This document shows, piece by piece, positions 26,699 to 31,725 of a stretch of DNA of 41,678 nucleotides. The notes below the pieces were generated by a model. The model was not told the DNA's origin. It saw only the letters and a list, made by a program, of their open reading frames with translations, and searched no databases. The stretch comes from Candidatus Zixiibacteriota bacterium (lineage in GTDB: Bacteria > Zixibacteria > MSB-5A5 > SM23-73-2), in contig JAUWYR010000020.1 in assembly GCA_030615745.1 (NCBI GenBank), positions 1 through 41,678 of the forward strand, read 5' to 3'. Numbering within the stretch: the stretch's first letter is position 1; every line of letters begins with the position of its first letter. The translations under genes and the position numbers were made by a program.

Positions 26699-26906
26699 CT
26701 CTAAGTTTCAAAAAAATACCAAAAATTCTTTTAAAAAACAATCAAAAAATGAATATGGTTAAAACTCAACATTTTATGGTTTTTCACCCACATATAAGAC
26801 AGTGTTTGAGAAAGATTAAGATTTTGTGAATTTTTTGGTTTCTTCTAAGTTTAAATCCCTAAACCCACTACAAAGAATTTGCAAATCCGTGGCTTATTTT
26901 TTGGTC

Positions 26907-26922
26907 TGGCACAGCTGTTGCA
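26907..26922 (+). promoter_or_regulatory. Sigma-54 promoter (-24/-12)
   Basis: TGGCAC (26907-26912), N5, TTGCA (26918-26922) matches the RpoN consensus TGGCAC-N5-TTGCW completely, including the invariant GG and GC. Transcription would start near 26934, 20 nt before the ATG of a 48-codon gene with its own SD. Confidence 0.82.
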
Positions 26923-26953
26923 TAATATAAAAATTAAAAAAGGTAGGGAGAAG

Positions 26954-27100
26954 ATGCCAAAAAAAAGAAAAAAGTCAAATCCAGAAAAAAATCTGGAGAA
27001 GACCTGCTGGCATATCTACAGCTTGCAGAATTTGAATTCTGAGAAGTTCATCAAAGTGGTAAATAAAATTTTAGAAAGAAAATATATCTTGATAAAATGA
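26954..27100 (+). CDS. Small basic protein of unknown function under a sigma-54 promoter
   Basis: 48 residues (MPKKRKKSNPEKNLEKTCWH, then IYSLQNLNSEKFIKVVNKIL). I do not recognise it. A longer frame begins at 26879, but that start lies upstream of the sigma-54 promoter and cannot be in the transcript. The ATG at 26954 has AGGGAG 6 nt upstream. The first ~18 residues are lysine-rich and the rest looks helical (SEKFIKVVNKILERKYIL); there is one cysteine and no signal peptide. A terminator follows 70 nt after the stop, so the unit is a compact monocistronic transcript of about 275 nt. A small regulatory or DNA/RNA-binding protein is conceivable, as is a small RNA that merely contains the frame. 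No activator gene is seen nearby. Confidence 0.6.
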   Translation: MPKKRKKSNPEKNLEKTCWHIYSLQNLNSEKFIKVVNKILERKYILIK

Positions 27101-27170
27101 GAAGTTGATTACTCAAAAAACGCCTCGGGGCAGATATTCACCCCTACCATTACCCAGTTAATTGTTTATT

Positions 27171-27207
27171 AGTCAACGACTTATGAAGTCGCTGGCTTTT
27201 ATTTTTT
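27171..27207 (+). terminator. Rho-independent terminator of the sigma-54 unit
   Basis: AGTCAACGACTT (27171-27182), loop ATG, AAGTCGCTGGCT (27186-27197), one A-C mismatch and one U-G pair, then TTTATTTTTTG. Confidence 0.8.
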
Positions 27208-27279
27208 GAGATGAGATGAAGAAATTTGCCACCTGATTATTTCAAGTTCTTAGTCGAACATGTCGACAAAAGATAATGT

Positions 27280-27567
27280 ATGTTCAAAGAACTAAAAGGA
27301 CAGTTCTCTTACAATAGCAAAGTAAAAAGTCTCTCATCGAATAGCCTTCGAGGATTTAAAGAAAGGTTAACCAACTTTTATAGGTTTCTCAAAGGGGAGA
27401 GTATTCCCTACGAAAGAGTCGACAAATCCACCATGCAGTTTTTTAAAAACTTTTTTTATCCTACCCAGAAAAAAGACTTGACATCCATAATCCATGATTT
27501 TAATTTAGGCGAAATTATTTTTGAAAATCACTTCTTTTTATGGAAGAAAAAAAAATCACTTTTTTAG
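27280..27567 (+). CDS. Hypothetical protein, possibly a tyrosine-recombinase N-terminal remnant
   Basis: 95 residues with weak support. The segment S-S-N-S-L-R-G-F-K-E-R-L-T-N-F-Y-R-F-L (~18-36), followed by I-P-Y-E-R-V-D-K-S-T-M-Q-F-F-K-N-F-F, resembles the SAM-like core-binding domain of XerC/XerD-type recombinases, but no catalytic domain follows. There is no SD upstream of the ATG, and the frame overlaps the start of the next gene by 28 nt. It could be a relic or not a gene at all. Confidence 0.3.
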   Translation: MFKELKGQFSYNSKVKSLSSNSLRGFKERLTNFYRFLKGESIPYERVDKSTMQFFKNFFYPTQKKDLTSIIHDFNLGEIIFENHFFLWKKKKSLF

Positions 27568-28451
27568 TAGTTCCGGAAAAGGGTAAGATATACAGTAAAA
27601 AAATTTCTGTTTATTTAATCTACTCCACCCTGTTAGTTTTGGTTTTTTTTCTTACTGTAGGTATCTTTTCTGGTATCAACTATCTTAAGCTCGATTTTGA
27701 TCGAAAAAAACTATCCTCTTTAAAGGAGGAGAACAGGTATTTGGAGAATGAAATCACCGAGCTTTTTTCAGTTATTTCGCAACTTAAAGACCAGATGGGC
27801 ACTTTGATTCAAAGGGAAAAAAATATCAGGATGGTTTTTGATTTACCGGAGGTTGATGATGCGATAAGGGAGGTGGGGATTGGTGGTCCTGATTTGGATT
27901 TTTATCCTTTTAAATCAGAGGCGTCTGAGGAAGTGAGGGTGGTTGAGAAGGAGTTGGATAAGCTTTTAAGACAGGCTAAATTTGAAAAAGAAAGCTTTGA
28001 CCAGATTTATTCACAGCTGGTTTCAAAAAAAGAGGTTTTAGACCATACACCCTCGATCTGGCCTGCAAAGGGCTATTTAAGTCGAGGCTTTGGTGTCAAA
28101 CCATCACCATTCACCGGTCTTAAACAACCTCATCTTGGCATAGATATCGCCGCCTCAAAAGGGACTCCTGTTTGGTCAACTGCCTGTGGAATTGTTGAGT
28201 ATACTGGCTGGCATAAAGGATTAGGAAAATTGGTGATCATAGACCATGGCTACGGATATAAAACTCACTATGGACATTTAAATGAGATAAAGGTGAAAAG
28301 AGGTCAAAGAATAAAAAGGGGGAAACTTTTAGGGACTATTGGAAACACGGGTTATTCAACCGGACCCCACCTGCATTATGAGGTTCATTATAAAGGAAAG
28401 GCTGTAAATCCTCAAAAATATATTTTATCCGAAAACTTCATCGTTGATTAA
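27540..28451 (+). CDS. M23-family (LytM) peptidoglycan peptidase
   Basis: 303 residues. Residues 1-20 are cytoplasmic, 23-46 a single membrane span (VYLIYSTLLVLVFFLTVGIF), and 55-105 a coiled coil (KLSSLKEENRYLENEITELF). The C-terminal ~120 residues are a LytM domain with H198-x3-D202 (HLGIDIA), H243-Y-G-H246 and H277-L-H279, the zinc-binding and catalytic set, all intact. The architecture (inner-membrane anchor, coiled coil, LytM) matches cell-wall hydrolases that act in the periplasm on peptide cross-links. No SD precedes the ATG, and the preceding frame overlaps by 28 nt. A terminator at 28476 closes the gene. Activity looks likely, and the role is probably in growth or cell separation. 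Confidence 0.9.
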   Translation: MEEKKITFLVVPEKGKIYSKKISVYLIYSTLLVLVFFLTVGIFSGINYLKLDFDRKKLSSLKEENRYLENEITELFSVISQLKDQMGTLIQREKNIRMVFDLPEVDDAIREVGIGGPDLDFYPFKSEASEEVRVVEKELDKLLRQAKFEKESFDQIYSQLVSKKEVLDHTPSIWPAKGYLSRGFGVKPSPFTGLKQPHLGIDIAASKGTPVWSTACGIVEYTGWHKGLGKLVIIDHGYGYKTHYGHLNEIKVKRGQRIKRGKLLGTIGNTGYSTGPHLHYEVHYKGKAVNPQKYILSENFIVD

Positions 28452-29594: not shown

Positions 29595-30236
29595 ATGGAT
29601 TTTAAAAGGCTCAGAGAGAAATCTGAACTGAAAAAAAGTAAGTCCTTTGATGATGAAAAGGATTTAAAAGAGATAATTAAAAAAGCGAAGAAAGGAGACC
29701 AAAAGGCATTTCAGGAGTTAGTAGAGAAATTCAAGGCACAGGTGGCAAGCATCGCTTATAAGATGATAGGCAATTATGAGGATGCAAAAGATATCTCTCA
29801 GATAGTATTTGTCAAGACCTATCAAAATTTAAATCGCTTCGACACCTCCAAAAAACTTTCCACCTGGCTATATCGCATAACCATTAATGCCAGTATCGAT
29901 TTCATAAGGAAGCACAAAAAACATCGGCATGAGGCTTTGGAGAGCGTGGGTGGAGAGCTTAGGGAGAAAAAATCTAATGTGGAAAGGGCTTATCAGAGAA
30001 ATTTGATCAAATGGGCTATAAAAAAAGCTATGGCTGTTTTGAATGAGAAACAGAAATCGGTATTTGTGCTCAGGGATTTGGAGGGATTGGATATAAAAGA
30101 GGTAGCTGAGATAACCAGTATGCCTCAGGCAACAGTGAGATGGTATTTACACAGAGCGCGCTCTAAATTAAGAGATGAGCTTTTAAGGCACTATTCTGGA
30201 ATTTTAGAGGGATCCGGGATAAAATATGGGATGTAA
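29595..30236 (+). CDS. ECF-family RNA polymerase sigma factor
   Basis: 213 residues. Region 2 spans ~25-105 (EIIKKAKKGDQKAFQELVEK, then EDAKDISQIVFVKTYQNLNR, then KLSTWLYRITINASIDFIRK) and region 4 ~135-200 (KKAMAVLNEKQKSVFVLRDL, then IKEVAEITSMPQATVRWYLH). The lysine-rich first 25 residues are extra. The stop codon overlaps the anti-sigma gene by 11 nt, the usual coupling for ECF pairs. In this operon the third gene is an HtrA-like lipoprotein that lacks the triad, so the pair probably answers to an envelope signal. No SD is obvious before the ATG. Confidence 0.92.
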   Translation: MDFKRLREKSELKKSKSFDDEKDLKEIIKKAKKGDQKAFQELVEKFKAQVASIAYKMIGNYEDAKDISQIVFVKTYQNLNRFDTSKKLSTWLYRITINASIDFIRKHKKHRHEALESVGGELREKKSNVERAYQRNLIKWAIKKAMAVLNEKQKSVFVLRDLEGLDIKEVAEITSMPQATVRWYLHRARSKLRDELLRHYSGILEGSGIKYGM

Positions 30237-30702
30237 AAAGATAAAGAAGTTGATCTTAAACTATTGGGATCTGACTGATCAAGAAAAAGAATGTTTTGAA
30301 GAACACCTGAAAGATTGTCCATCCTGTGCTAAGGAGTTCGATTTCTACCATAACTCCATGGAGATGATAAAGCAAAGCTTTGAATTCGAAGTGGGGGAGA
30401 ATTTCTGGGAGCGCTATGAGTCTGCTTTATCTAAGAAGTTATCTAAGGTAGCTACAAAAAGTTTGATCTTAAGTTGGGTAGAGGACTTTTTTCAATTTCT
30501 AAAAACTCCTATAATAGGTCCTCTGCCTACATATTTATTTTCCATCCTTATAGTTTTGCTTTTCTTGATCGGGTTATATCCTGCTTTTAACTCAAAGAGT
30601 TTTTCAAAAAGATTCGAAAACAACCTGGTGATCCATGAAGGAGAAATTTTCTCGACAATAGATGATGGTGAGGTAACCATCTATTTGCTGGAGAAAAAAT
30701 AA
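30226..30702 (+). CDS. Zinc-finger transmembrane anti-sigma factor
   Basis: 158 residues. His27-x3-Cys31-x2-Cys34 (H-L-K-D-C-P-S-C) is the zf-HC2/ZAS motif that holds zinc and binds an ECF sigma on the cytoplasmic side. A single membrane helix lies at ~100-118 (LPTYLFSILIVLLFLIGLY). The short periplasmic tail (~119-158) ends in DDGEVTIYLLEKK and could sense a periplasmic partner. It overlaps the sigma gene by 11 nt and stops 12 nt before the HtrA-like lipoprotein gene. It should restrain the sigma factor encoded before it until a signal triggers release. Confidence 0.9.
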   Translation: MGCKKIKKLILNYWDLTDQEKECFEEHLKDCPSCAKEFDFYHNSMEMIKQSFEFEVGENFWERYESALSKKLSKVATKSLILSWVEDFFQFLKTPIIGPLPTYLFSILIVLLFLIGLYPAFNSKSFSKRFENNLVIHEGEIFSTIDDGEVTIYLLEKK

Positions 30703-30714
30703 GAATCTTAACCT

Positions 30715-31725
30715 ATGAAGGGCTTTACTGCAAAATCGCTTTTCCCCAAATTTTTGATTTTATCTCTTTTTTTTCTTGGTTGTTCTTCTGATAAAACCAC
30801 CTTAGAGGATATTGAAAAAAACCTAAAAGAGATTATAGAGAAAGCAGGACCCTCAATTGTTTTCATCTCCGCAAAAAACAACGATTTGAATCTAACCAAA
30901 TATGGTGTGGGTGTGGTATTGGAAGAGGGGCATATTTTAACACTGGAAAACATCTTACAGAATGTGGACGAGATCAACATAACCCTGCAGAATGGGGAGG
31001 TGATAGGTGACTCAGAGATAACAGAGATTTTATGTGATTTCGAGACCAATGTGAGTATACTTAAAGTTGAGAAAAAAGATTTAAAGCCGGTTAAGCTGGC
31101 TAAAAAAGTTGAGGGTGGGAGCTTGGGCATTGTTTTAGGAAATACCAGATATTCAAAGGGATTGCAGGCGAGTTTGGGAACAGTTGGAAATTCCTGGATA
31201 GGGGGGGTGGATGGTTATGACAAAAATTTATTACTTCTAAACATCCCTTGTTCTATTTATTACAGCGGTACTCCTGTTTTCAATGCCAGAGGTGAGCTTT
31301 TGGGTTTGATCGAAGGTCAGGTGATGGGTGAAAAAGATCTTGTTTTGCTTCTCCCGGCAACCACCTGTCAAGAGGTTAGTGACATTCTTAAAGAAAATGG
31401 CGAGGTTAAAAGGGGGTGGATTGGGATTCGCTCTGAGATAGGAGGAAAAGATTTTGCTGGGAAAAAAGGGGTCGTTATAACTGAGGTGTTTGGAGGAAGC
31501 CCGGCATTTTACGCAGGATTGAAAAAAGGTGATCTGGTTATAAGTTGTCAGGGAAATCCGATTGAAACTAAACTTGAGCTTAAAAAAATGATCTCCCGAT
31601 TAAAAAAAGGATCGGAGGTGACTTTCACCTTAATCCGAGATGGAAAAAGATTACAAAAAAAGGTAGTTGTTCAGGAGGCAAAGGAAATCCTCAGACAAAG
31701 AAGATGCCCGGATAAGTCGATTTAG
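30715..31725 (+). CDS. HtrA-like lipoprotein lacking the catalytic His and Asp
   Basis: 336 residues. Lipobox L-F-F-L-G-C at about 18-23 after a hydrophobic stretch marks it as a lipoprotein. The trypsin-like fold aligns with DegP of the same window, but the His position is Asn79 (I-L-T-L-E-N-I against I-L-T-N-N-H-V), the Asp position is Asn112 (E-T-N-V-S-I-L) and only Ser184 is kept (Y-Y-S-G-T-P-V). It cannot work as a usual serine protease. A PDZ domain at ~235-325 is intact (RGWIGIRSEIGG, then SPAFYAGLKKGDLVI). The position right behind a sigma/anti-sigma pair suggests a sensor that binds misfolded proteins, comparable in logic to DegS/RseA circuits but without cleavage by itself (inference). 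Confidence 0.85.
   Translation: MKGFTAKSLFPKFLILSLFFLGCSSDKTTLEDIEKNLKEIIEKAGPSIVFISAKNNDLNLTKYGVGVVLEEGHILTLENILQNVDEINITLQNGEVIGDSEITEILCDFETNVSILKVEKKDLKPVKLAKKVEGGSLGIVLGNTRYSKGLQASLGTVGNSWIGGVDGYDKNLLLLNIPCSIYYSGTPVFNARGELLGLIEGQVMGEKDLVLLLPATTCQEVSDILKENGEVKRGWIGIRSEIGGKDFAGKKGVVITEVFGGSPAFYAGLKKGDLVISCQGNPIETKLELKKMISRLKKGSEVTFTLIRDGKRLQKKVVVQEAKEILRQRRCPDKSI

Follow-up and report, generated by a model that had tools for sequence, protein, structure and literature searches.

A 48-codon gene of Zixibacteria as a predicted member of a sigma-54 regulon that serves surface appendages and secreted proteins throughout the phylum

Introduction

The closest described counterparts of the locus reported here are the PilS-PilR and sigma-54 regulons of Pseudomonas, Geobacter and Dichelobacter, in which an NtrC-type activator and -24/-12 promoters are found at type IV pilin genes (PMC6058289). 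These regulons also reach flagellar genes: PilSR of Pseudomonas controls pili and swimming, and the PilR sites predicted in Geobacter include flagellar and cell-wall genes. A NifA-like element is the reported PilR hallmark in Pseudomonas (PMC6058289). Two further groups bear comparison, namely FlgM (PF04316) together with other small late-flagellar regulators, and the stand-alone receiver or adaptor proteins of two-component systems. Some flgM genes have tandem sigma-54 and FliA-like promoters. A search of the literature on Zixibacteria with sigma-54 or type IV pili found nothing specific.

We analysed a 41,678-nt stretch of a Zixibacteria genome (the window; contig C51 of a 2.28-Mb genome, G000, that is 98.6% complete), in which an earlier, sequence-only reading had marked a sigma-54 promoter, a 48-codon gene and a terminator as a minimal unit. 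The arrangement of activator gene, upstream dyad and prepilin genes in this genome, together with the other regulon genes, is the layout of a PilR regulon, with a putative PilR as the activator. The dyad (TATGGG-N6-CCCATA), however, is not the NifA-like element. Unlike PilS-PilR regulons, this one also includes C25 and M6 proteases and lipoproteins, and no counterpart of the small gene is known from them. With FlgM and its like the locus shares the small size of the gene and the sigma-54 and (in relatives) FliA-like promoters, but not homology. Its likeness to stand-alone receiver proteins lies in relatives where the same module stands N-terminal to a receiver domain, whereas the window protein is the module alone.

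The analysis provides an unstudied phylum with a marker protein that is nearly universal, together with a defined enhancer motif and the regulon predicted from it, and so brings the signal and the activator within reach of tests. It also indicates that a sigma-54 regulon can include very small genes as fixed members throughout a phylum.

Results

The small gene lies on the forward strand at 26954..27100 (48 codons at 26954-27097, plus the stop codon) and encodes MPKKRKKSNPEKNLEKTCWHIYSLQNLNSEKFIKVVNKILERKYILIK. It was found by tblastn in 56 of 59 relatives and by profile search in 127 of 132 genomes of the phylum, including 77 of the 78 good ones. When 84,980 species genomes were scanned with short peptide patterns, the loci listed were only those of the Zixibacteria group. 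Named relatives are almost all Zixibacteria MAGs, the same-genus sequence being SM23_73_2; among loci labelled Calditrichota, Ignavibacterium or FCB, those with matchable contig coordinates belong to the same GTDB class.

Substitution patterns are those of a gene under coding constraint. Values of pN/pS are mostly below 0.2 (of 13 pairs, 11 gave 0-0.16 and two close ones 0.32-0.43), and synonymous substitutions predominate between the window and its same-genus counterpart (pS 0.70, pN 0.08). Among 80 sequences there is no variation at K16, W19, H20, Y22, L24, Q25, K31, K38, L40 or K48, with which the protein ends. Judged by this codon-level conservation, the unit is a protein-coding gene. The protein, which had not been recognised by eye, matched no family in Pfam, NCBIfam or PHROG, and searches of the PDB by sequence and by fold gave no credible match and no recognisable DNA-binding fold. 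AlphaFold2 predicts, with moderate confidence (pLDDT 76, pTM 0.46), a compact beta-alpha-alpha-beta module after a low-confidence basic tail. The module (hereafter WHxYSLQ) has the consensus KTxWHxYSLQxL..EKF..VVxKIL..EYxLIK.

Upstream of the gene is a perfect -24/-12 element, TGGCACAGCTGTTGCA (TGGCAC-N5-TTGCA; 26907..26922, forward strand), whose -12 GC at 26920-26921 places the expected start at about 26933, 21 nt before the ATG at 26954; a Shine-Dalgarno sequence, AGGGAG, lies at 26945..26950. The sequence-only reading had likewise described a full RpoN match just before an ATG with its own Shine-Dalgarno sequence, and the presence of rpoN, on which that reading depended, is now confirmed (PF04552, E=3.8e-59). 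The rpoN gene of this genome neighbours hpf-like, hprK-like and ABC transporter genes (named by eye), and all 78 good genomes of the phylum have rpoN. The 2.28-Mb genome contains 8 exact matches to TGGCAC-N5-TTGCW, compared to 0 for the backwards pattern.

Both frame and promoter, for which a conservation check had been proposed, are retained across the phylum. The core GGCA-N7-TGC occurs within 250 nt upstream of 68 of the 80 named orthologues, compared to 1.2 in shuffles, and altering its spacing by -1, +1 or +2 leaves only 2, 0 or 4 of the 80; this enrichment at the exact spacing indicates that the promoter is under selection. The position of the site falls into two classes among 116 fetched orthologues: about -104 to -135 for the majority of families, and -45 to -75 for five, one of which is the window's. 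From these data the 48-codon gene is predicted to be transcribed by sigma-54 RNA polymerase.

Words enriched upstream of the orthologues yielded the dyad TATGGG-N6-CCCATA. The window copy, TATGGTTTTTCACCCACA (26775..26792, forward strand), agrees at 10 of 12 positions, and its same-genus counterpart is TATGGTTTTTTGCCCATA. Position is conserved in most of the 116 orthologues: distances from the dyad to the -24 box (range 123-156 nt) cluster at about -124, -134, -143 and -154, in steps of one helical turn. The best copy scores at least 10 of 12 in 62 of the 116 loci, compared to 0.9% of shuffles. A possible second dyad 21 bp further upstream, TATGGTTAAAACTCAACA (8/12; 26754..26771, forward strand), is weak and by itself within the null range. 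The genome has seven further exact sigma-54 sites, none of them with a dyad scoring at least 10, so the motif marks a subset of sigma-54 promoters. It looks like a putative site for an enhancer-binding protein, which bears out the earlier expectation that sigma-54 control implies an activator; the dyad itself had been missed, as had the separate sigma-70 promoter of the next gene.

The genome encodes 11 full or near-full NtrC-family AAA+ proteins. One of its loci (G000:C2:20716) has an NtrC-family, PilR-like gene followed by a dyad (11/12), a sigma-54 site (9/11) and prepilin genes, and a PilR-like response regulator is the most likely activator of the dyad. No activator gene was found within 900 bp of the other sampled dyad sites; since the pairing with pilin genes was seen in this one genome only, the activator could be another NtrC-family protein, not PilR.

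To delineate the regulon, we searched the 132 genomes for a composite pattern of dyad, 95-125 bp and sigma-54 core. It occurs in 82 of them, one to six times each, while the backwards control gave four matches in total. Eighteen of the matches listed are the 48-aa gene itself. In a sample of 53 matches (about 50 distinct loci, with the 48-aa gene largely left out), 17 have prepilin-like genes downstream; others precede PilM operons, GspH-like genes, M6 and C25 proteases or a lipoprotein-like family. Three composite matches lie 43-48 bp before a flagellin match (G131:C49, G039:C25, G049:C139). A reading of the regulon as flagellin-only was replaced, after this sampling, by one of pili and secretion. 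We predict that the small gene belongs to a sigma-54 regulon which spans the phylum and serves its surface appendages and secreted proteins; because the same control elements precede pilus, secreted-protein and some flagellin genes, its product is likely an uncharacterised part of surface-appendage operation in uncultured Zixibacteria.

In the window's genome, a dyad and sigma-54 pair also precedes two small conserved genes (G000:C62:38333). One encodes a 75-aa KFxLTM protein, the other a 109-aa membrane protein (L406:1333-2075), and both are conserved in relatives (L378, L396, L405, L407); the same-genus counterpart of the membrane protein gave no family match.

Discussion

We propose that an NtrC-family activator, most likely PilR-like, binds the dyad about 115 bp upstream and would open the -24/-12 promoter for sigma-54 RNA polymerase. 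The product, a basic tail joined to the beta-alpha-alpha-beta module and probably cytoplasmic, would be expressed alongside the type IV pilin and secreted-protein regulon; flagellated lineages would use a FliA-like promoter as well. Acting as a protein-binding regulator or adaptor, it may adjust an appendage or envelope process when these structures are made, with the adjacent M23 murein hydrolase as a candidate target. We regard this explanation as fairly probable when taken as a whole; its coding status, promoter, dyad, regulon membership and neighbourhood come from sequence and comparison, while the adaptor function and the target are conjectural.

The downstream region bears on the hydrolase. 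The window unit ends in an intrinsic terminator at 27171..27208 (hairpin 27171-27197 with T-tail TTTTATTTTTT, forward strand; folding energy of -11.9 kcal/mol for 27151-27212), and a same-genus genome (G001) has a hairpin at the same place with altered stem bases. A minimal unit closed by a terminator, as first described, is accordingly what the window's genus has, but the description does not extend to most relatives, where the -35 box of the next gene begins 2-60 nt past the stop codon. With so little room for a terminator, sigma-54 transcripts probably continue into the M23 gene there. That gene (27540..28451, forward strand; PF01551, with an N-terminal membrane helix and a coiled coil) stands directly after the small one at 75 of 80 loci from throughout the phylum, and a short conserved N-terminal segment lies ahead of its membrane helix. 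The small protein might then regulate or accompany the hydrolase, with sigma-54 read-through raising hydrolase levels so that appendages can pass the cell wall. The neighbourhood, the scarce terminator space and the conserved segment all favour such a role, but the M23 gene comes with a sigma-70 promoter of its own, TTGACA-N17-TAATTT at 27478..27506 (forward strand), which weakens an operon-based link and is itself conserved: 61 of 80 relatives have TTGAC-N17-TAnnnT in the space that separates the genes, compared to 0.7 in shuffles. The terminator in the window's genus, the few loci without an M23 neighbour and the module paralogues at other sites also count against a hydrolase partner, and we hold this role to be a tentative one.

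Further along the window (29595-31725) are, in a row, genes for an ECF sigma factor, a zinc-finger anti-sigma-like protein and a DegP-like protease. Many relatives also have an ECF sigma gene downstream of M23.

Most genomes contain one to four further module matches or paralogues. One class lies near rhodanese, DoxX-like and secretin-like genes (named by eye); in another, the module is fused N-terminal to a receiver domain (hhalign 97.4%, E=1e-11), and one paralogue in the window's genome adjoins a kinase-NtrC pair. The fusions and this pairing favour a protein-binding signalling role for the small protein, which we put forward with modest confidence. They would also fit a protein that feeds back on transcription, binding sigma-54 polymerase, the activator or a histidine kinase to tune the appendage regulon: the fused modules stand next to sensor proteins. 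No DNA-binding fold was recognised, however, and the binding is conjectural; we think feedback of this kind somewhat unlikely. Equally speculative is a more general idea, that WHxYSLQ is a Zixibacteria-specific signalling output domain, either receiver-fused or free as the 48-aa effector, through which a PilR-like/sigma-54 programme that serves pili, flagella and protein secretion might be coupled either to cell-wall remodelling or back to sigma-54 transcription. Because this module, which neither Pfam nor NCBIfam contains, recurs fused to receiver domains, identifying what it binds would account for several orphan signalling proteins in one step.

Three loci illustrate the fused form, with a WHxYxLQ module N-terminal to a receiver domain and then a large sensor-like gene (G054:C104, G050:C55, G035:C67; L190-L192). 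Two contig ends of the window's genome (G000:C1 and G000:C33; L069, L070) are the same over the 3' part of a WHxYxLQ paralogue but differ beyond it, which suggests a repeated segment.

Returning to the proposed appendage adaptor, its suggested second promoter raises the question of flagella. In many relatives TAAA-N14-16-CCGATA lies past the sigma-54 site but before the ATG; at its two best spacings it is present in 39 of 80 loci, compared to fewer than one in shuffles. Zixibacterial flagellin genes carry a similar TAAAG-N-GCCGAT, although the sites of the relatives often differ in spacing, and FliA-type sigma factors occur throughout the phylum. From these motifs we infer that a FliA-like promoter is used in relatives. 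The form TAAA-N15-GCCGATAA is absent in the window, and the segment is missing in the window's genus and in other flagellin-less families (f2, f5, f14), but also in the flagellated f6, while some flagellin-less genomes retain it; with such imperfect tracking the link to flagella is suggestive only. A scan of the window's genome for TAAA-N-CCGATA gave 29 matches, compared to 26 in the control, a chance level from which its FliA targets are not readable.

These tandem sigma-54 and FliA-like promoters in flagellated lineages, and a FliA-type sigma encoded in the window's genome, would suit an anti-sigma-28 factor, that is, a FlgM analogue in the flagellar checkpoint. Several of these genomes, however, encode divergent FlgM proteins at other loci, the small protein is retained in flagellin-less lineages (the window's own order included), and neither its sequence (PF04316, Pfam search) nor its fold matches FlgM. 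We rejected replacement of FlgM on the first two grounds, and consider the analogue improbable.

Least probable is a sigma-54-dependent small regulatory RNA with an incidental reading frame, which the sequence-only reading had named as an equal possibility. The short unit with promoter and terminator would suit it, but codon-level conservation (the excess of synonymous changes and the frame kept in 127 genomes) refutes it as the main reading, although an RNA with a dual function is conceivable; the 5' leader varies in sequence and in length (~20 to ~110 nt), and the unit has no Rfam match.

Other exact sigma-54 sites of the window's genome precede units of different kinds. At G000:C25:33214 (L003) the site is upstream of two tandem Hsp20-family-like chaperone genes (by eye). 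At G000:C40:31810 (L007:1501-1650) the site TGGCACAGGAGTTGCA is followed by a GC-rich hairpin region with no clear ORF, a candidate sigma-54-dependent small RNA. On the minus strand at G000:C40:17546 (L006), the site TGGCACAAAAGTTGCA lies 48 bp before a gene for a 49-aa, single-helix membrane peptide that starts MKNQISKNLIFVLIIIIVTLFVLL.
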